This document shows, one piece after another, positions 15,321 through 29,624 of a stretch of DNA of 64,000 nt. This stretch comes from Enterococcus haemoperoxidus ATCC BAA-382 (lineage in GTDB: Bacteria > Bacillota > Bacilli > Lactobacillales > Enterococcaceae): positions 62,001 through 126,000 of the forward strand of contig NZ_KE136479.1 of NCBI RefSeq assembly GCF_000407165.1, given 5' to 3'. The notes under the pieces were generated by a model, which was not told the DNA's origin, did no database searches, and was given only the letters and a program-made list of their open reading frames with translations. The translations under genes and the position numbers were made by a program. Each line of letters begins with the position of its first letter. Position 1 is the first letter of the stretch.

Positions 15321-15413
15321 ATTCAAAATCATCGAATGTAAATAAATAGAGAAGAAATCCCTTTGAAATTTTTAGGATTTATAGCTATAGTAGGTTCAAA
15401 GGAGTCGATAAGA

Positions 15414-16388
15414 ATGGAAAAAATCCGCTATGGAATTTTAAGCACAGCTCAAATCGTTCCGCGTTTTGTTGAAGGAATCAATAAAAGTAGCGCAGGAGAA
15501 GCTGTCGCAATTGCTTCAAGAAGTTTGGATAAAGCCGAACAAATGGCAAAACAATTGAATATTCCAAGAGCTTATGGTAGTTACGAGGAATTATGTAAGA
15601 ATGAAGAAATTGATATTGTTTATGTCGCTACATATAACAAAGGACATTATGAAGCAGCCAAATTGGCGTTGACATATCATAAGCATGTCTTACTTGAAAA
15701 GCCATTTACCTTAAAACTAGCGCAAGCAAAAGAACTTTTTGACTTAGCCGAAAAAAATGGCTGTTTCTTAATGGAAGCCCAAAAAGCTGTTTTTTTACCG
15801 ATTAGCGTACAAGTAAAAAAAGCAATTCAGCAAAATAAAATTGGGAAAGTCCAATGGCTACAATCTGTAACGACATATCCCAACGTTGACCACATCTCTT
15901 GGTTCCATTCACTAGAGGCAGGTGGTGGAACGCTACATGGGTCAGGAAGTTACCCTATCCAATATATGCAGTTTATATTAGATCAAGAGATTGAAGAGTG
16001 CCATGGTAGTTCTACAAGAAGAAAAGGTGCAACAGATGATCAGGTAAATTTGGCTCTGAAGTTTGATGAACAAGCTTTGGCTACTATTTTTATTTCAGTA
16101 AAAATTGATATTCCAAGTAAAATGATCATTTACGGAGAAACAGGGCGTATAGAAATTCCGTATTTTTGGAAAACGAAACAAGCAATCATCTACTATGAAG
16201 ATGGAAATCAAGAAAAATTGATTGGTGAGTTTGATAGTGAATTTGTTTTTGAAGTCGAACATGTTAATGAATGCCTTCAAAATAAGTGGCTAGAAAGTCC
16301 TATTATGACTAAAAAAATGACTTTAGGCACAGTAGAGCTAGTAGAACAACTTTATAGAGAATGGCTAAAAACGGATGAGTTGATATAG
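15414..16388 (+). CDS. Gfo/Idh/MocA-family oxidoreductase
   Basis: A 324-residue NAD(P)-dependent sugar or inositol dehydrogenase-like protein. The N-terminal Rossmann domain begins [14 protein letters not shown], the conserved EKPF motif appears as LLEKPFTLK (about 93-101), and the C-terminal alpha/beta substrate domain contains the [15 protein letters not shown] segment. The ATG at 15414 follows AAAGGAG at 15399-15405, and the longer in-frame start at 15363 lacks a site. It stands alone and may act on a sugar of the catabolic island just downstream, but nothing in the sequence shows that. Confidence 0.8.
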
Positions 16389-16429: not shown

Positions 16430-16628
16430 CATGCGACGAGTTGACTCAATCAGATAGCTTCGGCTGTTCCGTTTTGACGGCTAGTGATTGACAAAACAGC
16501 AGAGGCACATATGTTAGATCATACCTACCGGATGTAGGCGTGTCGGATAAATATTTTTGTGGAGAAGATGTTATCTATTTATTTTTATAAATACTGCGTC
16601 AAAAAAGAAGACTTCGGTCTTCTTTTTT
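16430..16628 (+). ncRNA. Candidate structured small RNA
   Basis: About 200 bases between a plausible promoter and a perfect terminator, with no open frame. It can fold locally: GCTGTT/GTTTTG against CAAAACAGC (about 16463-16500), and CCTAC/GTAGG near 16530. A shared 12-mer GCTAGTGATTGA recurs at about 61,930. It matches no RNA family I recognise. Confidence 0.3.
16601..16628 (+). terminator. Strong terminator with TTCG tetraloop
   Basis: AAAAAAGAAGAC-TTCG-GTCTTCTTTTTT is a 12-bp perfect stem. It may end the oxidoreductase transcript or the candidate small RNA. Confidence 0.85.
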
Positions 16629-16935: not shown

Positions 16936-18813
16936 ATGTCACTGCACTTATCAAAACGAGAAATAAAAATCTTGTTATTGCTTTTAGATTTAGAAGACAG
17001 TGTTACAACAAAAGAATTGGCAGAAACCTTCCATGTCAGTGTGCGGACAATCAAATATGATTTAGAAAATGTCCGCGATTGGTTCAAAGAACAAAATGTT
17101 TTACTCAAAACGCGGCGTAATAAAGGAATTTGGCTAGAGATACCCGATTCAGAAAGATTGACTTTGAAAAATGAAATTATTGAAGTAGAGCGATTTGAAA
17201 CGTATCCTGATCAAGAGTTGAGAGTCAATCAGTTGATTTTTCGCTTGTTATTAGCCTCTAACTATTTAACTTCACAAGAATTGGCAGATGATCTTCAAGT
17301 GAGTCGTAATACGATCATTAGTGATTTAGATCGTGTGGAAGAATTGATCCACAATTATGAACTTGCACTTAATCGCCAAAGTCGCCAGGGATTTTCTATT
17401 GTTGGGGAAGAGAGCAAAATTCGTTTGTTGATGGAATATATCACGCAAAAAGAAATAACTGAATATGATATTTACCAGATTATGAGTTATTTTGTTCAAT
17501 CAGGACAACAAAAGAAAATGCAGGAAGTTCACGTTGGGGTCAATACGATTTTTCAGAAAATCTATCAAGTTGCGTTAAAAGAAATGACAGGTCTGTTAGA
17601 TCCTTCTTTGTTTGATCAATTTAATTACGCTGAAATACTCTCGATTACATTACGTGTGGCAATTGCGGCATCCAGAATGCAGCTCCATCACACGGTTGGT
17701 GGCTATAAAATGCTCACGAATCAAAAAGTATTACAGCAAAAGCAAGAATTACCGTTTTTATTGATGAAGAAAGTTTTCAATCATTATGAATTACCACTTT
17801 TAGCAGATGAATATTTCTATATCTATAGTGATGTGTTCGTTGCAAATAATCAAAAGGACATTGTTGGCCTGACGGAAGAGTTGATCAAAGATGTGTCTGA
17901 AGAAATCAATTTTCCTTTTTATCGTGATCGTCAACTATTTACAAATCTTTTCGCACATTTATCCTTACGACTAACAAAGAAACATCTTTTTATAAATGAG
18001 TATAATCCCTTTGTTGATGATATCAAGGCTAAGTATCCACAATTGTTTTCAGCGATTCAGCTTGCCAGCCAAAGTGATATCGAAGGTTCAGTCTTGTTGA
18101 TCAATGATTCATTTATTGCCTATATTGCTTTGCACTTTTTGGTTGCGTATGAAAAAAATCTACATGAAGTCAATGTGGTCAGGATCGTGTATGTATGTTC
18201 AACTGGTCTAGGTGTGACGAGTTTGATTGAACAAAAAATCATGGAAGACGTTTCAAATGTTGAAATTGCTGGATTTGCATCCGTTTTAAATGCAGTAGAT
18301 GTAATAGAAGAAAAAAATCCAGATTTGGTTTTAAGTATTTTTCCAATCGAAATTGTAAATCGTCCTTTTGTTAAAGTGAATCCGCTACCGACAGAAGCAG
18401 ATATTCATAGTATTCAAGAGGAAGTCAATAAAATTTTGACGCATACAAAAACAGGCAAGGTCCCACGATTGATCCCTCGTCAACAAATAAAAGAAAAACA
18501 AGGAATCGAAGCGGAAAGTAGAGATATTCTTGTACGGACCTATGTAATCTATGAAGAATTACTTAAAGCATTTGCTGAAAAATTGACGCAAGAATATAAA
18601 GAAGCGTTTTTACTTCATGTGATGCTGATGGTCCATCGAATCACTTTTGATAGTCAATACGAAAGTGAAGGGAATATTGTTAAAGAGACTTTGTTGGCAC
18701 AGCAAGAATTAGTTGAACAAATAGAACGAATTTTTGCTAAAAACGATCTAATGGTTAATCAAGCAGAAATTACTGCTTTATTGAATTATATAAGAGAGGA
18801 GGGGCACGCATGA
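16936..18813 (+). CDS. PRD-containing transcriptional activator (BglG/MtlR-like)
   Basis: A 625-residue regulator. Two N-terminal DNA-binding winged-helix segments are visible (about 1-60 with TTKELAETFHVSVRTIKYDLE, and about 85-140 with SQELADDLQVSRNTIISDLD). PTS-regulated domains follow in the middle, then an EIIB-like domain with VYVCSTGLG (Cys421), and a further PRD-like helical stretch at about 515-620. The absence of an RNA-binding CAT domain argues for a DNA-binding activator rather than an antiterminator. PRD and EIIB phosphorylation by the PTS would tune it. It heads the catabolic island and overlaps the next gene. Confidence 0.88.
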   Translation: MSLHLSKREIKILLLLLDLEDSVTTKELAETFHVSVRTIKYDLENVRDWFKEQNVLLKTRRNKGIWLEIPDSERLTLKNEIIEVERFETYPDQELRVNQLIFRLLLASNYLTSQELADDLQVSRNTIISDLDRVEELIHNYELALNRQSRQGFSIVGEESKIRLLMEYITQKEITEYDIYQIMSYFVQSGQQKKMQEVHVGVNTIFQKIYQVALKEMTGLLDPSLFDQFNYAEILSITLRVAIAASRMQLHHTVGGYKMLTNQKVLQQKQELPFLLMKKVFNHYELPLLADEYFYIYSDVFVANNQKDIVGLTEELIKDVSEEINFPFYRDRQLFTNLFAHLSLRLTKKHLFINEYNPFVDDIKAKYPQLFSAIQLASQSDIEGSVLLINDSFIAYIALHFLVAYEKNLHEVNVVRIVYVCSTGLGVTSLIEQKIMEDVSNVEIAGFASVLNAVDVIEEKNPDLVLSIFPIEIVNRPFVKVNPLPTEADIHSIQEEVNKILTHTKTGKVPRLIPRQQIKEKQGIEAESRDILVRTYVIYEELLKAFAEKLTQEYKEAFLLHVMLMVHRITFDSQYESEGNIVKETLLAQQELVEQIERIFAKNDLMVNQAEITALLNYIREEGHA

Positions 18814-19148
18814 AGTTAAATGACGATGCTCAAAAAATCATTGATGAAAGCCCAAATAGAGTTGAGTTGGAAGCATCACTGGAAAAAATCAATACATTGT
18901 TAGTAGAACAAGCAATTCAGCCGACTGAATTACAATGGACGATTTTGATCAATCATGTCAATGAAATGATCAAACGCTCGATTGCAGATGAAAAAATGTC
19001 TGGCGTTGATCCAATAATGTTTGAAGAAGTATCTAAAGAAGCGTTAGCGATTGCAGATCAAGTTGTTCAGCATATTGGAAATCTACCGCAAGACGAGATG
19101 TATGTATTATCGATCCATTTTGAAGCAGCAAGACAAAATGAAGCATAA
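18810..19148 (+). CDS. Small stand-alone PRD-domain protein
   Basis: A 112-residue all-helical protein resembling a single PTS-regulation domain, with a PRD-like core at about 35-108 (WTILINHVNEMIKRS... and YVLSIHFEAAR). It overlaps the regulator stop by 4 bases (ATGA). Stand-alone PRD proteins of this size occur beside the SFCGS/DUF4310-4312 gene set and may modulate the large regulator. The role is inferred from context. Confidence 0.75.
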   Translation: MKLNDDAQKIIDESPNRVELEASLEKINTLLVEQAIQPTELQWTILINHVNEMIKRSIADEKMSGVDPIMFEEVSKEALAIADQVVQHIGNLPQDEMYVLSIHFEAARQNEA

Positions 19149-19204
19149 GAGAAAATAGAAGCATCAATGATGCACGTTTAAATAAAAAATTGGAGGAATA
19201 AATC

Positions 19205-19558
19205 ATGATAACAGTAGTAATTGCAGATCGTTTAGGTAAAGGTCAAAATGTTGCAAAAGGGGTAGAAGCAGCTGGCGGCAAAGCAGTTGTTGTGCCGGGA
19301 ATGGGTGCAGATATGCGTTTAGGAGATGTCATGCAACAAGAAAATGCGGATCTAGGGATTTCATTTTGCGGAAGCGGTGGTGCAGGTGCATTAACAGCTG
19401 CTACAAAATATGGCTACCCAGAACGTCACGGTATGCGTTCTATTGATGAAGGTGTGACAGCAATTAATGATGGTAAAACGGTATTAGGTTTTGGTTTTAT
19501 GGATCAAGAAGAATTAGGGAAACGTATAGTGGAAGCGTATCTGAAAAAGAACGCCTAA
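19205..19558 (+). CDS. Glycine-rich SFCGS-family protein
   Basis: A 117-residue soluble protein containing the eponymous LGISFCGSGGAGALTAATKYGY (about 58-79), with a conserved Cys in a Gly-rich loop. The N terminus ITVVIADRLGKGQNVAKGVEAAGGKA looks like a PTS EIIB-like or nucleotide-fold beta-alpha start. GGAGG precedes the ATG. Family members always seem to accompany DUF4310-4312 membrane proteins. A phosphocarrier role of the Cys is conceivable by analogy with EIIB, but this is speculation. Confidence 0.8.
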   Translation: MITVVIADRLGKGQNVAKGVEAAGGKAVVVPGMGADMRLGDVMQQENADLGISFCGSGGAGALTAATKYGYPERHGMRSIDEGVTAINDGKTVLGFGFMDQEELGKRIVEAYLKKNA

Positions 19559-19584
19559 CATTAAAACTGGAGGGGGAGAACCAA

Positions 19585-19959
19585 ATGGAAAAAGTAACAA
19601 TTAAAAAGCGTCAGGTCATTCAGGTCGAAGGGACAGGAAAAGAAAAAAATCTGGCTTTTGCAAATGCGTTGAATCAAATCCATAATCGTGTATTAAAAGA
19701 AAAAGATGATGTGATCGTTCGAATTGAACCGCTGGATATTCAAATCGTAAAAGCAGAACAAGAAACCTTTACAGAGCGCTTTTTCTTTTTCTTTTTACCT
19801 CGTACACGTGCAGATTATCGTGTATTGTTGGATGTTGAAGTTGAAATTACATTGATTGAAATGGAAACAATTCCGTTTATTGAAAAAAGAGTTACTGATC
19901 CAAATGGTCTTCCAATCCCTTTTGGAAAGAAAAACAGAATGCATAAGGGGGCAAATTAA
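19585..19959 (+). CDS. DUF4312 family protein
   Basis: A 124-residue protein with mixed beta/alpha content and a hydrophobic FFFFFLPRTRADYRVLLDVEVEI segment (about 67-89; the first 16 of these are most diagnostic), ending in a basic tail. GGAGGGGG lies upstream. The stop is directly followed by the ATG of the DUF4311 gene with no gap, so the two are probably translated together as parts of one membrane complex. The function is not known. Confidence 0.8.
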   Translation: MEKVTIKKRQVIQVEGTGKEKNLAFANALNQIHNRVLKEKDDVIVRIEPLDIQIVKAEQETFTERFFFFFLPRTRADYRVLLDVEVEITLIEMETIPFIEKRVTDPNGLPIPFGKKNRMHKGAN

Positions 19960-20742
19960 ATGGATGTTTTAGTCGTTTTACTCAAGTCACTATTGATTGG
20001 GGGATTAGTTGGATTTGCAGCAGGAGCAGGAGCTGCAAGAATGTTCCATGCGCCAAGCACACAAGGACTCGGTGCTTTTAGAACGTTAGGTGAAATGAAC
20101 GCTTGTGAAGGAGATGCGGCCAGTCATTTTTCATTTGGACTAGGATTCTTCTTTAATGCTTGGGCATCAACTGTTGGAGCAGGAGCATTTACTCAAGATG
20201 TGGATCACCGTGTGATTCCTAACTGGGCAGCAGCAGCATTATTAGTAAAAAATAAAAATGTTTCTGAAACAATGCATAACCCGAAAAAAATGGGGATTTC
20301 AGGTGCAATTGTTGGGATGCTAGTCGTGGCTTTCTTGAATACGACGGCTTCTGCAATTCCAGAATCATTACAAGTAACTGCGGTTGCAGTTTTAGTACCG
20401 GCAGCAAATTTATTGATCAATACAGTAATGCCAGTTTTATTCTGGTTAGCAGCGATTGATGCTGGAAAACGCTCTGGACTTTGGGCAACAATTTTTGGTG
20501 GTCTTGCAACGATGATCATGGGAAATGCAGTTCCAGGTGTTGTACTAGGAATTCTAATTGGTAAAGGTGTCGATGAAATCGGCTGGAACAAAGTAACGAA
20601 AAGCATGATGGCAGCAGTTATTCTATTATTTGTACTTAGTGCTTTTTTCCGAGGATTCGATTTACAAATGATCGAAAGTTTCCGTTTACAGATTCCAGGT
20701 TGGCTGCAAAATATGCATGATGTTTTTAGTATCGGCAAGTAA
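19960..20742 (+). CDS. DUF4311 family integral membrane protein
   Basis: A 260-residue polytopic membrane protein with about six to seven spans. Notable conserved-looking loops include GAGAARMFHAPSTQGLGAF (about 21-39) and NACEGDAASHFSFG (about 47-60). It abuts the DUF4312 gene and precedes the DUF4310 gene by 24 bases. The paired membrane proteins look like an EIIC/EIID-like or transporter core, but no known energy-coupling motif is present in them. Confidence 0.82.
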   Translation: MDVLVVLLKSLLIGGLVGFAAGAGAARMFHAPSTQGLGAFRTLGEMNACEGDAASHFSFGLGFFFNAWASTVGAGAFTQDVDHRVIPNWAAAALLVKNKNVSETMHNPKKMGISGAIVGMLVVAFLNTTASAIPESLQVTAVAVLVPAANLLINTVMPVLFWLAAIDAGKRSGLWATIFGGLATMIMGNAVPGVVLGILIGKGVDEIGWNKVTKSMMAAVILLFVLSAFFRGFDLQMIESFRLQIPGWLQNMHDVFSIGK

Positions 20743-20766
20743 CTAAATAGAAAGTGGGGAACCTTA

Positions 20767-21429
20767 ATGGATGAAATAGTAGAATTAGAAAAAAAGAATT
20801 TTTGGTTTGCTGATTGGTCATTTCCGATTTTAGTCGGGTTATTATCAGCAGGTGTGTTTGCTGGAACGCATATGTATATAGAGCATGGCGTGGGAGCTTT
20901 TAATGAAGTGGCAATCGTTGCGATGTTAAAAGCTGGAATGGACGGCGGCTCTTATGGTGCAGCTGCGGCATTTGGGGCAAGTTTCTTGTTTGCACGTATT
21001 TTGGAAGGGTCATTAGTCGGTATTTTAGATATTGGCGGAGCGATTTTAACTGGAGTTGGGATTGGGGTTCCAGCGATTCTTTTAAGTATGGGAATCACAG
21101 CACCCGTTGAAAACTTTGGACTTTCCTTACTAACTGGGATGGTTCTTGGATTGATTATCGGTGGAATTATTATTATGATTCGGAAATTTACAATCAATCA
21201 GTCAAATTCTACATTTGGTGCGGATGTCATGATGGGAGCTGGAAATGCTTCTGGCCGTTTCTTAGGTCCTTTGATCATTATTAGTGCATGTGGGGCTTCG
21301 GCTCCAATCGGTATTGGCTCAATTATCGGGGCTGTAATTTTCTATGTGTGGAAAAAACCAATTGCTGGTGGTGCGATTTTAGGTGCAATGATATTTGGTG
21401 CAATATTCCCAGTTGATTTACCTAGTTAA
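20767..21429 (+). CDS. DUF4310 family integral membrane protein
   Basis: A 220-residue membrane protein with about six Gly/Ala-rich spans, including GGAILTGVGIGVPAILLSMG and the loop MMGAGNASGRFLGPLIIISA. GGGGAACC upstream supports the ATG. It completes the SFCGS-DUF4312-DUF4311-DUF4310 set. A 120-base gap with a TATAAT at 21472-21477 separates it from the EIIC gene, so a second internal promoter is possible. Confidence 0.82.
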   Translation: MDEIVELEKKNFWFADWSFPILVGLLSAGVFAGTHMYIEHGVGAFNEVAIVAMLKAGMDGGSYGAAAAFGASFLFARILEGSLVGILDIGGAILTGVGIGVPAILLSMGITAPVENFGLSLLTGMVLGLIIGGIIIMIRKFTINQSNSTFGADVMMGAGNASGRFLGPLIIISACGASAPIGIGSIIGAVIFYVWKKPIAGGAILGAMIFGAIFPVDLPS

Positions 21430-21552
21430 AGTCAATTAAAATTGCACTATTCTTTTGAAAACCGTTTACATTATAATGTTACCATGTTATTATGAATGGG
21501 AAATAATTTGATTTTTTATTCATACTAATTTTTTGAACGGAGGACAAAAGAA

Positions 21553-22872
21553 ATGAATGGTTTTGTGCAATGGATGGAAGTAAAATTGATGCCGATCGCC
21601 AATAAATTTGGCTCTCAAAGGCATATGACGGCGATCAGAAAGGGCCTTATTGCAACTATGCCTTTGACGATCGTGGGTGCTTTTTTCACAGTATTTCAGA
21701 ATATTCCAATCGATGCTTACATGAAATTTATTGAACCCTATCAAGCAGTTTTAGATATTCCATCTCGGTATACAATGGGGATTTTAGCTCTGTATGCAAC
21801 ATTTGGTATTGCCTCTTCTTTGGCGACGAGTTATAAATTAGATTCTTTAACTTGTGGGATCTTAGCAGTGATGGCCTTTTTGGTCACAGCAGCTCCACCA
21901 ACTCGTGTTTTTGAAGACGTAAAAGATGTTATTGGTGCAGGCCGTTACATTAATTTAGCTAATATAGGTTCTGCTTCATTGTTTGGAGCGATTGTTACAG
22001 CGCTAGTTTCTGTAGAAATCTACCGCTTCTTTATTCAAAAGGATATTACGATAAAAATGCCTGATGGTGTTCCACCAGAAGTTTCCAATTCGTTTATCGC
22101 GCTGATTCCTGGCGCTGTGATTTTATTGTTATTCTGGGTGATTCGTCATGTGATTGGTTTTGACTTAAATGGTTTCTTGAGTACGTTATTAATGCCTTTG
22201 AAAGATACCTTAGCTGGAAACAGCTTATTTGGTGGGCTACTTACCGTCTTCTTGATTTGTTTCTTCTGGGTTTTAGGGATTCACGGACCGGCAATTATGG
22301 GACCTGTCATCAGACCATTTTGGGATATGTCGATTGCAGAGAATACACTTGCTTTCCAAGAAGGTGCATCGGTTCATAATTTGCCAAATATCTTTACTGA
22401 ACAATTTTTACAGTGGTTTATCTGGATCGGTGGCGCCGGTACTACTTTAGCTTTAGTCGTTTTAATGATGTTTTCTAAATCAACATACTTGAAAAGTTTA
22501 GGACGTTTGTCCTTCCTACCAGGATTATTTAATATTAATGAACCAGTGATTTTTGGTACACCGATCGTAATGAACCCAATATTAGGGATTCCGTTTATCG
22601 TGGCACCGTTGATCACAACAACTTTTTCTTATTTCTTAACTGTGACAAATGTGATCCCAATGATGGCAGCGCGTTTACCATTTGCCATACCTGCGCCGAT
22701 TGCCGCTTGGATGAGTACAAACTGGAGCGTACCAGCAGCACTGCTTGTTTGCGTTAATTTCGCGATTACTTTGGCGATTTACTACCCATTCTTCAAAGTA
22801 TATGAAAAACAACAGTTAGACAAAGAAGCAGAAGAGCTGGCGGCTGAACAAAAAGCAAAATCAGCTGCTTAA
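21553..22872 (+). CDS. PTS Lac/cellobiose-family EIIC permease
   Basis: A 439-residue membrane permease of the CelB/ChbC/LacE type. It has about ten spans, the family loop NEPVIFGTPIVMNPILGIPF (about 332-351) containing the sugar-binding Glu, and the central GIHGPAIMGPVI segment. Substrates in the family are beta-linked disaccharides such as cellobiose, chitobiose or lactose, phosphorylated on the non-reducing sugar. No EIIA or EIIB lies in the operon, so it would borrow them or use an unrecognised partner. GGAGG at 21540-21544 supports the start. Confidence 0.92.
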   Translation: MNGFVQWMEVKLMPIANKFGSQRHMTAIRKGLIATMPLTIVGAFFTVFQNIPIDAYMKFIEPYQAVLDIPSRYTMGILALYATFGIASSLATSYKLDSLTCGILAVMAFLVTAAPPTRVFEDVKDVIGAGRYINLANIGSASLFGAIVTALVSVEIYRFFIQKDITIKMPDGVPPEVSNSFIALIPGAVILLLFWVIRHVIGFDLNGFLSTLLMPLKDTLAGNSLFGGLLTVFLICFFWVLGIHGPAIMGPVIRPFWDMSIAENTLAFQEGASVHNLPNIFTEQFLQWFIWIGGAGTTLALVVLMMFSKSTYLKSLGRLSFLPGLFNINEPVIFGTPIVMNPILGIPFIVAPLITTTFSYFLTVTNVIPMMAARLPFAIPAPIAAWMSTNWSVPAALLVCVNFAITLAIYYPFFKVYEKQQLDKEAEELAAEQKAKSAA

Positions 22873-22895
22873 TTAAGAAGAGAGGGAGGGTAGTA

Positions 22896-23177
22896 GTGTT
22901 ACTATCCTCTTTGGTGATTAAGGTCATGATAATTTGGTTTATTGTATTTTTTATTCTTAGTCAAGTAATGATTGAAAAGAAGTGGCTACCTGCAAAATTT
23001 ATGGAATTGAGATTATTATATTTGTGTATAGCTTCGATTGGGTTGATTTTCTTATCAATCGTGATTGGAATTTTAATCAAACAACCTGTATTCATAGTAG
23101 GGACCGTAACCATATTGTGCAGCTCAGTACTTTCTTTTAAATATCGTAATAAATTCGACCATATAAAGCGAGGGTAA
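22896..23177 (+). CDS. Small three-span membrane protein, unknown
   Basis: A 93-residue hydrophobic protein with predicted spans at about 5-24, 40-62 and 67-84 and a short basic tail. The GTG start at 22896 is favoured by GAGGGAGGG six bases upstream. An internal ATG at 22926 would delete the first span. It sits between the EIIC and the phosphoglycosidase genes. I recognise no family. Confidence 0.7.
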   Translation: MLLSSLVIKVMIIWFIVFFILSQVMIEKKWLPAKFMELRLLYLCIASIGLIFLSIVIGILIKQPVFIVGTVTILCSSVLSFKYRNKFDHIKRG

Positions 23178-23182
23178 AAGCC

Positions 23183-24271
23183 ATGAAAAGAGCATTAGGT
23201 GTATCTGTATATCCAGATCATAGTGATACAGAAAAAGATAAAGCGTATTTGAAAAAGGCCAGTGAATGTGGGTTTTCACGAATCTTTATGAGTATGTTGG
23301 AAGTAACAGAAGGCAAAGAAGTTGTAAAAGAAAAGTTCAAATCGTTGATTGCTTTTGCAAAAGAGTTAGGGTATGAAACGATTTTAGATGTGGCACCGAA
23401 TATTTTTGATGAATTACAAATTTCATATGATGATTTAACGTTCTTTTATGAGACTGGTGCTGACGGTATTCGGTTAGATGCTGGATTTGATGGCAACAAG
23501 GAAGCGAAGCTGACGTTTAATCCATTTGATTTAGCGATTGAACTGAATATGAGTAACGATGTGGCGTATCTTGATAATATTTTGACCTATGAAGCCAACG
23601 TTCCATTTCTTTATGGATGTCACAACTTTTATCCGCAGGAAGGGACAGCTTTGCCGTATGATTTCTTTGAGCGCTGTAGTGTTCGTTTTAAAAAACATGG
23701 GATTCGAACAGCGGCATTTATCAATTCTCAAGCAGGCAAGATTGGTCCTTGGGATGTGAATGATGGATTGCCAACATTAGAAATGCACCGACATTTACCA
23801 GTAGATATCCAAACAAAACATTTATTTGCAACGGGCTTGATTGATGATGTGATTATTGGAAATGCCTATGCATCAGATGAAGAATTAGAATTACTAGGCA
23901 GCTTAAATCGTTATCAATTAGAATTCGCTGTTGAATTTAAAGAGGATGCAAACAAGGTTGAAAAGGAGATTATATTGAATGAACAGCACTTCCGTCGTGG
24001 GGACATTACGGATCAAGTGGTTCGTTCAACCGAAGTACGTAAAAAATACAAGAATGAAGCCAATCCAGCACATGACAATACAGAAGGATTTCAAGTTGGA
24101 GATGTTGTGATCGGCAATGATGCGTTTGGGAAATACAAAAATGAGCTGCAAATTGTTTTACAGCCGCATTCAGATGACCGTAAAAATAAAGTAGGTCAAA
24201 TAACAGAGAAAGAATTGTTGTTGTTGGATTTTGTAAAACCCTGGACAAAATTTAGATTTAAAGAAAAGTAG
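23183..24271 (+). CDS. MupG/DUF871-family 6-phospho-glycosidase-like TIM-barrel protein
   Basis: A 362-residue protein with an N-terminal TIM barrel (about 1-235, beginning RALGVSVYPDHSDTEKD and containing GFSRIFMSMLEV and GADGIRLDAGF) and a C-terminal cyclophilin-like domain (about 250-360). In S. aureus the family member MupG hydrolyses MurNAc-6P-GlcNAc. Here it probably cleaves the phosphodisaccharide delivered by the EIIC. It starts 5 bases after the small membrane gene. The true substrate is unproven. Confidence 0.85.
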   Translation: MKRALGVSVYPDHSDTEKDKAYLKKASECGFSRIFMSMLEVTEGKEVVKEKFKSLIAFAKELGYETILDVAPNIFDELQISYDDLTFFYETGADGIRLDAGFDGNKEAKLTFNPFDLAIELNMSNDVAYLDNILTYEANVPFLYGCHNFYPQEGTALPYDFFERCSVRFKKHGIRTAAFINSQAGKIGPWDVNDGLPTLEMHRHLPVDIQTKHLFATGLIDDVIIGNAYASDEELELLGSLNRYQLEFAVEFKEDANKVEKEIILNEQHFRRGDITDQVVRSTEVRKKYKNEANPAHDNTEGFQVGDVVIGNDAFGKYKNELQIVLQPHSDDRKNKVGQITEKELLLLDFVKPWTKFRFKEK

Positions 24272-24279
24272 GGGATAAA

Positions 24280-25389
24280 ATGAGTTACGACTTAATTATA
24301 AAAAATGGGCAAACCATTGAAGGTAGACCAATAGAAATAGCAATTAATGCTGGGAAAATTGCAAAAGTTGCCGATAAAATCGAAGCAGATAGTAAGAAAG
24401 TTGTTGAATTATCAGCGGACACTTATGTATCCGCTGGTTGGATCGATGATCATGTCCATTGTTTTGAAAAAATGACTTTGTATTATGATTTTCCAGATGA
24501 AATTGGTGTTAAAAAAGGCGTAACGACCGTAATTGATGCGGGTACGACAGGTGCAGAAAATATCCATGAATTTTATGACTTAGCCAAAAAAGCGAAAACC
24601 AATGTTTATGCTTTAGTGAATATTTCAAAATGGGGGATCGTTGAACAAGACGAATTGGCAGATCTTAGTAAGGTGAAAGAAGAATTAGTTCATAAAGTAT
24701 TGACTGAACTGCCAGATTTTGTTGTAGGAATAAAGGCCCGCATGAGTAAAACGGTGATCGGGGACAATGGGATCACTCCTTTAGAAATGGCTAAGAAGAT
24801 TCAAAAAGCAAACAATGATCTGCCTCTGATGGTGCATATTGGATCGGCTCCACCAGAATTGGATGAAATCCTAGCACATATGTCTAAAGGTGATGTACTG
24901 ACCCATTGTTTCAATGGCAAACCAAACGGGATTTTGGATCAATCAACAGATAAGATTAAAGAATTTGCATGGGAAGCCTATGATAAAGGGATTGTTTTTG
25001 ATATTGGTCACGGAACGGACAGTTTCAATTTTCATGTTGCTGAAACGGCATTATCTGAAGGAATGAAAGCAACATCAATCAGTACAGATATTTATATCCG
25101 TAACCGTGAAAAAGGACCTGTGCATGATTTAGCTACTACAATGGAAAAATTACGTGTAGTTGGTTATGACTGGTCTGAAATCATTGAAAAAGTAACCATT
25201 GCTCCTGCTGAAAATTTCCGATTTGAGTCAAAAGGTCAGTTGAAAGAAGGATATGATGCTGATATCACGATCTTTACAATTGAAGCAGGTCAAAAGACCT
25301 TGACAGATTCCAACGGATTTACCAGAGAAGCAAAAGAATTGATCAAACCTGTAAAAACCATTATTGGAGGAACAGTCTATGACAATTAG
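24280..25389 (+). CDS. Amidohydrolase/deacetylase-family metallohydrolase
   Basis: A 369-residue amidohydrolase. Metal ligands are visible as DDHVHCF (His58, His60), a probable carboxylated lysine in VGIKARMSK (Lys152), HIGSAPP and THCFNG histidines, and a final Asp in STDIYIRN. Relatives are often called adenine deaminases, but the operon setting next to an amino-acid-sugar lyase favours deacetylation of an N-acetyl amino sugar acid, which is inference. GGGG precedes the ATG, and the 3' end overlaps the next gene by 11 bases. Confidence 0.85.
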   Translation: MSYDLIIKNGQTIEGRPIEIAINAGKIAKVADKIEADSKKVVELSADTYVSAGWIDDHVHCFEKMTLYYDFPDEIGVKKGVTTVIDAGTTGAENIHEFYDLAKKAKTNVYALVNISKWGIVEQDELADLSKVKEELVHKVLTELPDFVVGIKARMSKTVIGDNGITPLEMAKKIQKANNDLPLMVHIGSAPPELDEILAHMSKGDVLTHCFNGKPNGILDQSTDKIKEFAWEAYDKGIVFDIGHGTDSFNFHVAETALSEGMKATSISTDIYIRNREKGPVHDLATTMEKLRVVGYDWSEIIEKVTIAPAENFRFESKGQLKEGYDADITIFTIEAGQKTLTDSNGFTREAKELIKPVKTIIGGTVYDN

Positions 25390-26473
25390 TTATGAAAAAT
25401 TCAACCTAAAAGAAGTCATCAATGCCTCAGGTAGAATGACGATTTTAGGGGTATCAAAAGTGTCAGAAAATGTCTTAGCTGCTCAAAAATTTGGCGGCGA
25501 ACATTTCTTTGAAATGAGTGAGTTAAGTATTCAAACAGGTGCTTATTTAGCGAAACTTTTAGGAGTTGAAGATGCCCAAGTCGTTTCTTCCGCATCTGCT
25601 GGTATCGCACAAAGTGTGGCTGCTTTGATTGGTGAGGGTTCTGTTTATCATGCTTATCATCCCTACACAGATAAAATCACTAAGCGGGAAATAATTCTAC
25701 CTAAAGGGCACAATGTAGATTATGGGACGCCTGTTGAAGTGATGGTCGAACAAGGTGGTGGTCAAGTTATAGAGGCTGGTTACGCTAATATGTGTTCACC
25801 AGAACATATCGAAATGATGATTACGGATCAAACGGCTGCGATTCTTTATATCAAGAGTCATCATACTGTTCAAAAAAGTATGTTAAGTGTTGAAGAAGCA
25901 GCAACCGTAGCGCAGAAACATAAGCTACCATTGATTGTGGATGCCGCAGCAGAAGAGGACCTGTTCAAATACATCAAAGCAGGTGCAGATCTAGTGATTT
26001 ATAGTGGTGCAAAGGCTATCGAAGGTCCAAGTGCAGGACTTGTGATTGGGAAAAAAGACTATATCGAATGGATTCGCCTGCAAGGAAAAGGAATCGGAAG
26101 AGCGATGAAAATCGGTAAAGATAACATTCTAGGATTTACCCAAGCGGTAGAGGATTATGTGAAAAATGGTAGTGAAGCAGGGGATTCAATGCAAGCACGA
26201 TTAACACCATTTATCGATAGTCTAAATAAAATCACAAATATTGAAGCTAAAATCGTTCAGGACGGTGCAGGTAGAGATATTTATCGTGCTAGTATCAAAG
26301 TAAGTGGCGTAAAATCAGCTAAAGAAGTCATCCAAGAACTAAGAGCTGAGAGCCCTGCAATATATACTCGTGAATACCAAGCAAACAACGGTATCATCGA
26401 ATTCGATATCCGTTCAGTCAATGAAGAAGAAATGAATAAAATCGTGACTCGTTTAACCGAAATCATGAAATAA
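25379..26473 (+). CDS. dgaE: DgaE-type PLP-dependent ammonia-lyase
   Basis: A 364-residue fold-type I PLP enzyme of the SelA-like class. The Schiff-base lysine is Lys212 in YSGAKAIEGPSAG, preceded by the cofactor aspartate in LIVDAAAEED. In Salmonella, DgaE converts D-glucosaminate-6-phosphate to 2-keto-3-deoxygluconate-6-phosphate plus ammonia. The neighbouring KDGP aldolase supports the same chemistry here. The ATG at 25379 has GGAGG at 25366-25370 and lies within the end of the deacetylase gene. Whether it uses the phosphorylated or free sugar acid is open. Confidence 0.85.
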   Translation: MTISYEKFNLKEVINASGRMTILGVSKVSENVLAAQKFGGEHFFEMSELSIQTGAYLAKLLGVEDAQVVSSASAGIAQSVAALIGEGSVYHAYHPYTDKITKREIILPKGHNVDYGTPVEVMVEQGGGQVIEAGYANMCSPEHIEMMITDQTAAILYIKSHHTVQKSMLSVEEAATVAQKHKLPLIVDAAAEEDLFKYIKAGADLVIYSGAKAIEGPSAGLVIGKKDYIEWIRLQGKGIGRAMKIGKDNILGFTQAVEDYVKNGSEAGDSMQARLTPFIDSLNKITNIEAKIVQDGAGRDIYRASIKVSGVKSAKEVIQELRAESPAIYTREYQANNGIIEFDIRSVNEEEMNKIVTRLTEIMK

Positions 26474-26501
26474 AAAAATTATAAACAGGAGTGAATCAAT
26501 C

Positions 26502-27245
26502 ATGACATTAACACCAAATTATTTAGAAAACCGTATTTGCCTAAACGTCCTAGCTAACTCAGTAGAAAATGCGAAAGACTGTTATGAAGCAGCAGAAGGA
26601 CACATTGTATTAGGTGTATTATCTAAAAACTATCCAACTGACGAAGCTGCGATTGAAGACATGAAAAAATATGCCGCAGAAACGAACAACGCATTATCTG
26701 TTGGTTTAGGTGCAGGTGATCCAAATCAAAGCCAAATGGTATCAAGAATTTCAAAAGAATTACAACCCCAACATGTCAACCAAGTCTTTACAGGTGTAGG
26801 TACATCACGTGCATTATTAGGTCAAAACGAAACAATCGTCAATGGCTTAGTATCACCAACAGGTAAAGTCGGCATTGTCAATATCGCTACAGGTCCATTA
26901 AGCTCACAAACACCAGCTGGCGAAGTTACGATCGAAACAGCGATTCGTTTATTACAAGATATGGGGGGCAGCTCAATCAAATTCTTCCCAATGAAAGGCT
27001 TAGCACATATCGAAGAATATAAGGCAGTCGCTGAAGCATGTGCTAAATATGACTTCTACCTAGAGCCAACAGGGGGAATCGATTTAGAAAACTTTGAAGA
27101 AATCGTACAAATCGCAGTAGATGCCGGAGTGAAGAAAATCATCCCTCACGTGTATAGCTCAATCATCGATTCAACAACAGGAGATACAAGACCAGAAGAT
27201 GTCAAAACATTACTTGGGATGATCAAAAATACATTAAAAAAATAA
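26502..27245 (+). CDS. dgaF: KDGP aldolase (DgaF type)
   Basis: A 247-residue class I aldolase that splits 2-keto-3-deoxygluconate-6-phosphate into pyruvate and glyceraldehyde-3-phosphate. The probable Schiff-base lysine lies in SSIKFFPMKGL, and the phosphate-binding loop in LEPTGGIDLENF. CAGGAGTG precedes the ATG. It follows the lyase by 28 bases and precedes a strong terminator, so it ends the main operon. Confidence 0.88.
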   Translation: MTLTPNYLENRICLNVLANSVENAKDCYEAAEGHIVLGVLSKNYPTDEAAIEDMKKYAAETNNALSVGLGAGDPNQSQMVSRISKELQPQHVNQVFTGVGTSRALLGQNETIVNGLVSPTGKVGIVNIATGPLSSQTPAGEVTIETAIRLLQDMGGSSIKFFPMKGLAHIEEYKAVAEACAKYDFYLEPTGGIDLENFEEIVQIAVDAGVKKIIPHVYSSIIDSTTGDTRPEDVKTLLGMIKNTLKK

Positions 27246-27247
27246 AA

Positions 27248-27267
27248 GCTGAGTGAGCTCGTTCAGC
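27248..27267. repeat. Dispersed palindromic repeat (GCTGAGTGAGCTCGTTCAGC)
   Basis: A near-perfect 20-base palindrome just after the aldolase stop. The same core, allowing a few changes, appears at 3263, 27370, 33025 and 34977. Confidence 0.6.
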
Positions 27268-27282
27268 GTTGACAGAAAAATA

Positions 27283-27333
27283 GGAAAATATGACTGAGGC
27301 GAAATGTGCCTCATTCATATTTTGTCTTTTTTC
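27283..27333 (+). terminator. Terminator of the catabolic operon
   Basis: AAAATATGA.TGAGGC pairs with GCCTCA.TCATATTTT around GAAATGT, followed by TCTTTTTT. A related stem is present at 34914-34953. Confidence 0.8.
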
Positions 27334-27369
27334 CGAAACGCAAGCTCACAAAGCTAGATAAAAATAAAA

Positions 27370-27389
27370 GCTGAACGAACTCGTGAAGC
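27370..27389. repeat. Dispersed palindromic repeat (GCTGAACGAACTCGTGAAGC)
   Basis: A second copy flanks the other side of the terminator, immediately before the kinase gene. The preceding AGCTAGATAAAAATAAAA also matches sequence next to the copy at about 3.3 kb. Confidence 0.55.
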
Positions 27390-27411
27390 TAAGAAATAGG
27401 CAGGGATCGAC

Positions 27412-28422
27412 ATGAGAATTGCAGCATTTGGTGAAATAATGATGCGCTTGACGCCACCAGAATATCTGATGTTGGAACAAACCAAAGAATTACGTTTAGA
27501 CTTTACAGGAACAGGAGTTAATATTTTAAGTAACCTCGCTCATTTTGGCTGTCAAACAAGTTTACTGACAAATCTTCCTAACAACCGATTAGGTGAAGCA
27601 GCTAAAGCAAGTGTCCGTCAGTTAGGGATTCAAGATCGTTGGATCGGTTTTTCTGGTGATCATATTGGTTCTTATTTTGCAGAAATGGGGTTTGGACCAA
27701 GACCGACACAAGTAACGTATCAAAATCGTCGAAACAGTTCATTTGGTGTGAGTGGAGCTTCTAAGTATAATTTCGATATATTTTTAGCTGAAACCGATTT
27801 AGTGCATATTTGTGGAATTTCATTAAGTTTGACAGAAGAAACTCGTGAGGCTGCGTTTGTTTTAGCCGAAAAGGCGCATGCTCTAGGAAAGAAAGTCTGT
27901 TTCGACTTTAATTTTCGACCTAGTTTAAATGAAGTGCATGGTACTTCATTTATGAAGGAACAATATGAAAAAATACTACCATATTGCGATTTAGTTTTTG
28001 GTAGTCAACGTGATTTAACAGACTTATTGGGAATGAAGCTTGATGAAACAGTGGAACCGTCTAAACAGTTTGAAGCATTAATTCACCAATTTATGCTGGA
28101 ATATCAGATTGAACGCTTTGCTGGGACGATTCGTCAAGGCGAAGGGAATAAACATTATTTAACTGGTTTTTTATTCGATTTAGAAAGCTATGTTCAATCA
28201 GCTCCCCGCGAGATTATTAATTTGGATCGAATCGGTGCAGGTGACGGTTATGCTGCAGGGATTTTGCTTGGATATAGTGAATCATGGTCATTACTAGAAA
28301 CAGTAGAATTTGCCACTGCCAATGGCGTTTTGGCGCATACAATTCAAGGAGATGTTCCGCTGACAACGCGAAAACAAGTTAGACATATCATGGAACAACC
28401 AACGGTAGATTTGATCCGCTAG
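27412..28422 (+). CDS. kdgK: PfkB-family 2-keto-3-deoxygluconate kinase
   Basis: A 336-residue ribokinase-fold sugar kinase with N-terminal AFGEIMMRLTPPE and FTGTGVNILSNLAHFG, and the catalytic anion-hole motif DRIGAGDGYAAG (about 276-287). The best family match is KDG kinase, making KDGP for the aldolase. Its presence suggests that at least part of the flux arrives as unphosphorylated KDG. A terminator and two palindromic repeats separate it from dgaF, so it may be transcribed on its own. Confidence 0.82.
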   Translation: MRIAAFGEIMMRLTPPEYLMLEQTKELRLDFTGTGVNILSNLAHFGCQTSLLTNLPNNRLGEAAKASVRQLGIQDRWIGFSGDHIGSYFAEMGFGPRPTQVTYQNRRNSSFGVSGASKYNFDIFLAETDLVHICGISLSLTEETREAAFVLAEKAHALGKKVCFDFNFRPSLNEVHGTSFMKEQYEKILPYCDLVFGSQRDLTDLLGMKLDETVEPSKQFEALIHQFMLEYQIERFAGTIRQGEGNKHYLTGFLFDLESYVQSAPREIINLDRIGAGDGYAAGILLGYSESWSLLETVEFATANGVLAHTIQGDVPLTTRKQVRHIMEQPTVDLIR

Positions 28423-28613: not shown

Positions 28614-29624
28614 GTGACCGATGAAAATATTTGGAAAGCACTAGACGATGATGTTTTGAAAGATAGTATTCGAAAACGACCAGGTATGTACATTGGTGGA
28701 ATTGGTTCGACAGGCTTGGAAAGTATGGTGCTGCAAGTGCTGGATCATTTGCTGCAATTGGCAGTTGATCTAAAGCAGACAGAACTGTCGATCGAACTTT
28801 CAAAGACGCAATTCATTTTTTCTTTTTTTAGTAAAAAAGGGTTATTTTTAGATAAAAGTCCTGAAGAACAGTATACACCGCCTTATCTTTTTCTTTCTGT
28901 CGTCAATGCGTTGTCAGAACAATTAGGTTTTGGGGTAGAAAAATTAGGGAAGCGAACGATTCAAATCTATCAAAATGGACAGCTGAATAAAAAAGCGCTG
29001 ATTCCTTCGGAAGATGAAGGGCAAAGAATCGAGCTGGCCTTTACACCAGATGAGACATTATTTGGCAATAAGCCGGTATCCTATTTTGTTTTATTTAACC
29101 GATGTCAAGAACTAGCAATGCTAAATAGCGGGTTGACTATTTCGTTGACCGATGGTAAAAAACAGAAAAATTATTTTCATTATGAGCAAGGTCTCGTAGA
29201 TTATATTTTTCAAAAAGATGACAGTATCACGCGCAGCGGTCAACCATTGAGCATTAATACGATCAGTGAAGGTGTGACGATTCAAGCTGTCATCTCAAAA
29301 AATGGTTCGACGAGTATTAAAGACAGTTTCGTCAACGGTCATTTACCTTCTGATGGCGGAACACATCTTGATGGATTTGTGCAAGGGACTGTTGACGCAA
29401 TCAATCAATTTTTAGAGGAAACGAATCGCTTGAAATACTTAACAACAGATAATTTTTCAGAACGTTTTGACGTCGTTTTGTCAATTCAAGTCAAACGACC
29501 AAGATACACTGGGGCGATCAAGAAGAAAATCAGAAATCCTGAGCTGTATAAAATCGTGAAAGAAGCGGTATTCACTGAAGTTTCTATCTTCTTAAAACGA
29601 CATCCTGCTTGGTATTTAAACTAA
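28614..29624 (+). CDS. Degenerate GyrB/ParE-like protein
   Basis: A 336-residue protein. The start resembles GyrB (DSIRKRPGMYIGGIGSTGLES) and a later segment resembles the transducer domain (GGTHLDGFVQGTVDAINQFL), but the ATPase core is gone: the N-box reads QVLDHLLQLA where EIVDNSIDEA is expected, and no DNGRGIP motif or lid glycine loop exists. The TOPRIM region is absent. GTG at 28614 is supported by AGGAGGAG. It is longer and more intact than a random fragment, so it is probably a functional non-ATPase paralogue. It precedes yqxD by 26 bases. Confidence 0.75.
   Translation: MTDENIWKALDDDVLKDSIRKRPGMYIGGIGSTGLESMVLQVLDHLLQLAVDLKQTELSIELSKTQFIFSFFSKKGLFLDKSPEEQYTPPYLFLSVVNALSEQLGFGVEKLGKRTIQIYQNGQLNKKALIPSEDEGQRIELAFTPDETLFGNKPVSYFVLFNRCQELAMLNSGLTISLTDGKKQKNYFHYEQGLVDYIFQKDDSITRSGQPLSINTISEGVTIQAVISKNGSTSIKDSFVNGHLPSDGGTHLDGFVQGTVDAINQFLEETNRLKYLTTDNFSERFDVVLSIQVKRPRYTGAIKKKIRNPELYKIVKEAVFTEVSIFLKRHPAWYLN

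Follow-up and report, generated by a model that had tools for sequence, protein, structure and literature searches.

We analysed a stretch of 64,000 nucleotides (the window) from Enterococcus haemoperoxidus ATCC BAA-382, an Enterococcus genome of 3.58 Mb, with respect to a putative sugar-acid operon at positions 16936 to 28422. Open reading frame (ORF) calls and profile searches place 13 genes in this region, all of them open and running in the same direction (Table 1). A first reading of the letters (the original prediction) had described an island for the catabolism of an N-acetylated amino-sugar acid and had named six genes: a lactose-family EIIC of the phosphotransferase system (PTS), a MupG-type glycosidase, a metallo-deacetylase, a DgaE-type ammonia-lyase, an aldolase and a kinase. 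All six are present as co-directional open frames with family matches, and the gene overlaps it had seen are real, comprising 4 bases between the regulator and the stand-alone PRD protein and 11 bases between deacetylase and lyase. Its list did not, however, contain a five-gene block at 18810-21429 inside the same region, nor an orphan protein of 93 amino acids (aa), nor the conserved promoter-like stretch 5' of EIIC. A deacetylase, an ammonia-eliminating enzyme, a kinase and a 2-keto-3-deoxy-6-phosphogluconate (KDPG) aldolase are all encoded in one operon according to the profile searches.

Table 1. Genes and features of the region, in order of position; HTH, helix-turn-helix; PLP, pyridoxal phosphate.
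Feature	Position	Strand	Evidence
PRD-type transcription regulator	16936..18813	+	two HTH domains, PRD; Pfam HTH_11, Mga, PRD; EIIB-like stretch around Cys421 (by eye)
Stand-alone PRD protein (EF_0829/AHA_3910 family)	18810..19148	+	TIGR03582 129.7 bits, cut-off 69
Glycine-rich SFCGS protein (EF_0830)	19205..19558	+	RpiB/LacAB-like fold, soluble; Cys55 invariant
DUF4312 protein (EF_0831)	19585..19959	+	TIGR03578/PF14189; E64 and R73 in 99/99 rows
DUF4311 protein (EF_0832), candidate membrane permease subunit	19960..20742	+	TIGR03580 495 bits, cut-off 301
DUF4310 protein (EF_0833), candidate membrane permease subunit	20767..21429	+	TIGR03579 385 bits, cut-off 215
Promoter-like stretch 5' of EIIC	21455..21493	+	overlapping cre-like site TTGAAAACCGTTTACA
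Lactose/cellobiose-family EIIC (V583 EF_0834 by gene order)	21553..22872	+	TIGR00410 398.5 bits, cut-off 236
Orphan 93-aa protein between EIIC and MupG	22896..23177	+	membrane-like by eye
GH170 (MupG family) candidate 6-phospho-glycosidase	23183..24271	+	PF19200 322 bits, PF05913 133 bits, both above cut-off
EF_0837-type metallo-deacetylase, candidate for N-acetyl-glucosaminate(-6-P)	24280..25389	+	TIGR03583 563 bits, cut-off 432
DgaE-family PLP ammonia-lyase	25379..26473	+	TIGR01437 579 bits, cut-off 385; start taken as ATG 25379
DgaF-family KDPG aldolase	26502..27245	+	TIGR03581 414.5 bits, cut-off 222.4; NF047796 394.4 bits, cut-off 300
PfkB-family kinase (KdgK-like)	27412..28422	+	nearest solved chain 3ktn, 502 bits; KDG kinase 2afb 124 bits

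Further comparisons refine these assignments. The deacetylase matches the solved chain 2ics with 654 bits and the lyase matches 7lc0 with 289 bits; the lyase is still a TIGR01437 member although it lies below the cut-off of the DgaE equivalog NF047797 (363.7 versus 600 bits). A kinase of the PfkB family is indeed present where a 2-keto-3-deoxygluconate (KDG) kinase, KdgK, had been expected, but it scores under every KDG-kinase equivalog cut-off listed (NF052444 39.7 of 400, NF041332 132.5 of 440, NF040938 48.6 of 400 bits). Among the ORFs of the window neither an EIIA nor an EIIB frame adjoins EIIC. The 93-aa orphan gave no family match at an E-value of 0.01, and its homologues adjoin EIIC in enterococcal loci.

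Taking gene content and locus comparisons together, we lean slightly towards a two-entry catabolism of 2-acetamido-2-deoxy-D-gluconate (N-acetyl-glucosaminate, GlcNAc1A), with all substrates deduced from sequence. GlcNAc1A is the acid end left by chitin lytic polysaccharide monooxygenases (LPMOs). By the first entry the five-gene block, referred to as the DUF block, would import monomeric GlcNAc1A and most likely deliver it phosphorylated in a PTS-linked manner. By the second entry EIIC, presumably with EIIA and EIIB borrowed from elsewhere, would import the disaccharide GlcNAc-GlcNAc1A (chitobionate; GlcNAc, N-acetylglucosamine) with the phosphate on GlcNAc. The GH170 enzyme would split the phosphodisaccharide into GlcNAc-6-P and unphosphorylated GlcNAc1A, for which the PfkB kinase would then be required. 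Both routes would share the EF_0837-type deacetylase taking off acetate, the DgaE-type lyase eliminating ammonia to give KDG or its phosphate, and the DgaF-type aldolase yielding pyruvate and glyceraldehyde-3-P.

Two sets of loci were compared. A DUF4311 scan of the genome collection yielded at least 501 relatives, and the 80 best were taken as loci L027-L106, a set that leans to loci with the DUF block; judged by DUF4311, E. caccae is the closest named relative (99%). Independent of the DUF block, DgaE was searched in 246 Lactobacillales genomes, 60 of which were positive with 69 places; 57 of these were taken and form, together with three MupG regions of the own genome, the loci L111-L170. 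Left out were eight first copies from the same genus (window type), two partial places in G627, one in G420 and a second fragment in G613. One must keep in mind that the resulting 102 DUF4311 loci and 132 DgaE loci include repeats, that some species occur in both sets, and that all counts ignore kinship.

Loci were classified as follows: class A contains the DUF block, AB the DUF block and MupG, B MupG without DUF block, C the deacetylase cassette with neither of them, and D the lyase without deacetylase. The 57 DgaE-anchored regions comprise 19 A, 3 AB, 19 B, 8 C and 8 D loci, where class D is mixed (L123 and L169 are without a DgaF match, L147 stops at a contig edge). EIIC occurs in 18 of the 19 B loci. 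GntP-family permeases, i.e. aldonate transporters, stand in 7 of the 8 C loci (a Pfam match for L118, phmmer matches to L118 for the rest), and this company of the deacetylase-lyase-aldolase cassette makes an N-acetylated amino-sugar acid, as predicted, probably the best-fitting substrate class. A GntR/UTRA-type regulator accompanies 18/19 B and 8/8 C loci, compared with 7/79 A, 4/18 AB and 0/8 D loci.

The five-gene block (PRD protein, SFCGS, DUF4312, DUF4311 and DUF4310) is, judged by its recurrence, a conserved and previously undescribed candidate transporter block which is more conserved than EIIC. The NCBI family names, running from EF_0829/AHA_3910 to EF_0833/AHA_3914, already show that Aeromonas carries it as well. 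In BLAST searches with the window proteins most of the best 80 DUF4311 relatives carry the regulator, the block and the deacetylase-DgaE-DgaF genes; with the DUF block this core is conserved in Bacillota and Gammaproteobacteria, and it was found in enterococci, lactobacilli, Lactococcus, Listeria, Bacillus, Providencia, Klebsiella, Aliivibrio and Chromobacterium. The comparison of neighbourhoods suggested with the original prediction shows a gene set that recurs in named relatives and is not due to chance. Within the genus, DUF4311 was present in all 22 genomes, with the own genome among them. MupG, on the other hand, occurs in 15 of the 80 loci (12 from Enterococcus, 3 from Lactococcus), one of which (L028) is without EIIC. 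No lyase match accompanies the block in five of the 80 loci; L060 and L063 end at or near a contig edge, while L036, L042 and L047 have flanks in which no lyase match occurs. The PRD protein, SFCGS and DUF4312 are found in 0 of the 35 loci of classes B, C and D, which argues that their place is in import rather than in the enzymatic steps. A PRD-type regulator accompanies 87 of 97 DUF-block loci with DgaE, compared with 5/19 B, 1/8 C and 0/8 D loci (E-value 1e-3); in the regulator itself H341 is kept in 74/74, H400 in 73/74 and C421 in 68/73 aligned rows. In a Providencia stuartii locus (L094 9290-9949) the SFCGS frame extends to 220 aa and no separate DUF4312 match is listed, so that a natural SFCGS-DUF4312 fusion may be present.

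A hint towards the mode of import arises from the distribution of the kinase. In the DgaE-anchored regions a local KdgK-like kinase is encoded in 2/19 A, 3/3 AB, 19/19 B, 8/8 C and 0/8 D loci (Fisher p 2.6e-11 for class A against all other classes with deacetylase, kinship ignored). The DUF-anchored set agrees, with 1/60 A and 13/15 AB loci; of the two AB loci without kinase L033 lies at a contig edge and L037 shows no kinase match after DgaF. The simplest reading would be that the kinase tracks those routes which deliver unphosphorylated acid: a kinase is required for acid that comes in without phosphate through GntP, or that EIIC and GH170 set free without phosphate from a phosphodisaccharide, and it is dispensable after uptake through a phosphorylating PTS. 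As DUF-only loci are without a local kinase, the DUF block would be grouped with the phosphorylating importers, and it most likely behaves as a phosphorylating permease.

Several observations weigh against this reading. L037 has MupG yet no kinase match, flank included. Two Brochothrix-type loci (L079 and L136, with equal kinase score and probably from one species) combine the DUF block with a kinase and lack MupG, in L140 a PfkB kinase of 25% identity lies close by (196 bits), and weak PfkB matches of 50-54 bits were found in L082, L120 and L125. SFCGS carries an isomerase fold, and none of the DUF proteins was significantly related in sequence to the 11 proteins tried from the glucitol, ascorbate, galactitol and mannose PTS of E. 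coli. A less probable alternative would be secondary transport by the block without phosphorylation, or import of acid that is already phosphorylated, with an unrecognised kinase doing the phosphorylation and the pathway otherwise unchanged. The RpiB fold, the missing PTS kinship and the two Brochothrix-type loci would speak for this, as would KdgK-like kinases elsewhere in some genomes with the DUF block; a remote kinase could supply the phosphate, so that the kinase test is only partly clean.

To this question a genome-wide kinase search contributes, which covered 59 of 60 entries (L071 left out), mostly class A and with at least four genomes occurring twice. A match to the KdgK-like kinase profile, in some cases a weak one only, was obtained in 42 of the 59 entries. 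A second search with NF052444 took 38 of the entries (this profile was above cut-off in 1 of 14 control genomes) and gave KdgK in 4 of the 17 entries without profile match, 3 above cut-off and G678 just under; another 3 of the 17 had intermediate PfkB scores of 101-118 bits. In the remaining 10 of 59 entries nothing exceeded 51 bits (G606, G624, G540, G668, G669, G672 from Chromobacterium, G679, G684 from Arsenophonus, G687 and G691), where G668, G669 and G691 are metagenome-assembled genomes and the G687 locus (L100) has no DgaF match. Since no KdgK-like kinase above 51 bits was found in these ten, either the permease or an unrecognised kinase must supply the phosphate of their KDPG. This counts against a non-phosphorylating block, as do the full retention of histidines in the accompanying PRD proteins and the resemblance of the kinase-free DUF-only loci to the loci without deacetylase, most of which have a mannose PTS.

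If the block does phosphorylate, its parts would have to be of an unusual kind, since it contains no EIIA, EIIB or EIIC domain of any known PTS family. The stand-alone PRD protein is a candidate for the phosphoryl acceptor, with H49 and H103 each kept in 92 of 92 aligned rows. SFCGS has the RpiB/LacAB fold at 8-18% identity in aligned rows, and its Cys55 aligns with the cysteine of the RpiB ICGTG loop (single-pair P 0.0013), which is catalytic in RpiB. SFCGS thus resembles the RpiB/LacAB isomerases in fold and in the cysteine of the equivalent loop, but unlike them it accompanies a transporter and is absent from 35 of 35 loci where the enzymes occur without the DUF permease. The predicted structure of DUF4311 is all-helical (predicted local distance difference test score, pLDDT, 87.2), and DUF4310 is 68-86% identical to 41 aligned homologues. 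One may speculate that the block represents a new PTS-linked class of substrate-phosphorylating permeases serving N-acetyl-glucosaminate in Firmicutes and Gammaproteobacteria, in which the PRD protein (His49/His103) replaces EIIA, SFCGS (Cys55) replaces EIIB, DUF4311/DUF4310 form a membrane domain of unsolved fold, and E. coli yhfTUY is a distant branch with another substrate; as a whole we regard this proposal as tentative and rather doubtful. The E. coli yhf operon shares with the block a stand-alone PRD protein, YhfY, which is a relative of that of the window and stands beside YhfU and YhfT (L177 6033-11423). It differs in that the YhfT and YhfU matches are not significant and in its other enzymes (YhfS, Php, YhfW, YhfX), and its products are annotated as putative or uncharacterized.

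The active site of the lyase bears on the order of the steps. In a manually docked model of Salmonella DgaE the substrate phosphate is located at R301, R332 and R346, according to the available text of PMC9529869. These arginines as well as His162, His163 and Lys213 (Salmonella numbering) are kept in the window lyase and throughout the alignment of 128 loci, whatever the class, apart from gaps at 332 and 346 in two class A rows. On the carboxylate side, Arg226 is replaced by Lys in the window lyase and in most rows. The original prediction had taken the presence of KdgK to fit a free KDG intermediate. This argument is weak, as the phosphate-side arginines are retained in every class and the kinase falls below the KDG-kinase cut-offs, and a free-KDG intermediate is not favoured. 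Either the lyase always meets a phosphorylated acid and the kinase acts before it, or the arginines tolerate free substrate; the kinase may phosphorylate either the sugar acid or KDG. Neither in DgaE nor in the deacetylase did an alignment column pass the filter set to distinguish the "phosphorylated" from the "unphosphorylated" classes, which counts against the preferred reading and would mean that one enzyme takes both forms or that all classes phosphorylate before the lyase.

For the second entry the regulation of EIIC was considered. The promoter-like stretch before EIIC has a -35/-10 match with TG, while in the scan such sites were no commoner than in shuffled sequences; the label of the overlapping TTGAAAACCGTTTACA site follows the consensus of the catabolite-responsive element (cre). 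As the promoter-like stretch and its cre-like overlap recur in all 11 relatives listed (CCGTTTACATTA is conserved in each of these enterococcal loci), the genes from EIIC through the kinase may form a separate transcription unit. This can be compared with E. faecalis V583, for which PMC12502629 lists what the antiterminator NagY targets directly under GlcNAc, operons included; ef0834, the counterpart of the window EIIC by gene order, is on that list.

The own genome contains four MupG-family genes, the window gene included, which is 49.6% identical to the paralogue in L149, 46.5% to that in L148 and 25.7% to that in L150. The L149 paralogue sits in an EIIC-MupG-AnmK operon and the L150 paralogue in a murR-murP-murQ-mupG operon. 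In Lacticaseibacillus paracasei a GH170 enzyme and a cellobiose-type PTS are needed for growth on diacetylchitobiose, as stated in the available text of PMC12791066. The chb operon described there resembles the window in its cellobiose-type EIIC and in having a GH170 enzyme, ChbE, that acts on a GlcNAc disaccharide once this has been phosphorylated; it differs as its products proceed to NagA/NagB and as it encodes ChbA, ChbB and a DUF3284 protein, and sugar-acid enzymes are not mentioned in the same text. The position of the window MupG among its paralogues, apart from the MurNAc-6-P type, the L. paracasei precedent, the NagY target and the promoter unit fit a GlcNAc-headed disaccharide, and the predicted disaccharide entry is plausible, with GlcNAc at the non-reducing and GlcNAc1A at the reducing end.

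A MupG of the mur-operon type, for recycling of N-acetylmuramic acid (MurNAc), was considered for the window and rejected, given the low identity to the L150 paralogue (26%) and the absence of murQ from the window operon. More broadly, the EIIC-GH170 pair might serve a muropeptide-type disaccharide (MurNAc-GlcNAc or GlcNAc-anhydroMurNAc) and merely share the operon with the sugar-acid genes, in agreement with the L149 paralogue beside AnmK, with a LysM-glucosaminidase gene near the cassette in L111 and with the 6-phospho-muramidase activity of S. aureus MupG (PMC6262408, cited in the available text of PMC12791066). We consider this quite improbable, because the genome holds the separate mur operon of L150, because anmK is likewise missing from the window operon, and because 19 loci without the DUF block join MupG, nearly always with EIIC, to deacetylase, DgaE, DgaF and kinase. 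In L149 (8201-12169) EIIC, a 120-aa protein, the MupG-family gene and AnmK follow one another directly; this arrangement points to an anhydroMurNAc disaccharide that would be taken up by the PTS and whose freed half would be phosphorylated by a kinase.

The acetylated nature of the acid is addressed by class D. Mannose-PTS genes occur in 5 of its 8 loci (L124, L151, L152, L153, L164), where DgaE-DgaF without deacetylase correspond to the Salmonella dga type; L151-L153 are second DgaE-DgaF copies in three genomes of the same genus. Salmonella dgaABCDEF reportedly combines import of D-glucosaminate by a mannose-family EII with the lack of a deacetylase. The deacetylase therefore tracks a different, presumably acetylated, substrate. 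It is unlikely in our view that the acid is a different 2-acetamido aldonate (the epimer of galacto or manno type) or glucosaminate itself, the deacetylase then having another task, with no chitin link in either case: the five Salmonella-like loci and the retained DgaE active-site residues argue against it, even though the lyase is far under the DgaE equivalog cut-off, LPMO co-occurrence is modest only, and the NagY regulon report discusses host glycans.

The link to chitin LPMOs drawn in the original prediction holds in part. Four LPMO matches were found in the own genome, and in Lactobacillales 17 of 34 genomes with DUF4311 have an LPMO match versus 34 of 212 others (p 3e-5, kinship ignored). 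By genus, 7 of 9 LPMO genera fall within the 19 of 64 genera with DUF4311 (p 0.002). With the own genus removed the values are 9/26 versus 34/212 (p 0.025), and in the order to which a Providencia (G683) belongs they are 16/41 versus 63/254 (p 0.046). The association is present but modest. It is weakened by the other 17 of the 34 Lactobacillales DUF4311 genomes, which are without LPMO match, and by 34 of 51 LPMO genomes without DUF4311 match; the LPMO-less carriers would be explained if their neighbours make GlcNAc1A or if the acid has some other origin. LPMO and DUF4311 genes are 18-28 kb apart in G909, G939 and G857 (L171, L172-L175).

The chemistry of the preferred GlcNAc1A pathway is known. 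Jiang et al. showed the sequence GlcNAc1A to glucosaminate (GlcN1A) to KDG to KDPG with other enzymes in Pseudoalteromonas (available text of PMC9537276). Their ong cluster is similar to the window in deacetylation, deamination, KdgK, KDPG and in a chitin LPMO product as substrate, but by its named classes it is set apart: OngB is of the D-aminoacylase type, OngC of the D-amino-acid-deaminase type, and an SSS transporter and GH20 are used. Enterococcus does not occur in the main text of that paper. D-glucosaminate utilisation by Salmonella dgaABCDEF (Miller 2013) is cited in the available parts of PMC7396535 and PMC10746210. The window shares with dga a DgaE-family lyase, a DgaF-family aldolase and PTS-linked import, and it adds deacetylase, kinase, EIIC/GH170 and the DUF block, with a lyase under the DgaE equivalog cut-off; dga needs no KdgK. 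New would be a variant with other enzymes and a transporter block that is possibly a new permease class. If this is correct, families that so far bear only locus or DUF numbers (EF_0829 to EF_0833, EF_0837) could be assigned a function, and Gram-positive and enteric bacteria would have a route for the acid end that LPMO cleavage leaves on chitin; and if the DUF block phosphorylates, the PTS would gain a permease class built of unrelated parts.

The operon is flanked on both sides by further features. A Gfo/Idh/MocA-type oxidoreductase is encoded upstream of the regulator at 15363-16388, with BLAST matches in L027-L035, L037, L039 and L053, and the Enterococcus small RNA Ref68 (RF02840, 87.6 bits) is located between the two at 16432-16567. 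At 28614-29624, 3' of the operon, a 336-aa protein matches only the middle of GyrB/ParE profiles (about 94-371 of 640), and ORFs at its position, linked by position only, recur in 11 enterococcal loci.

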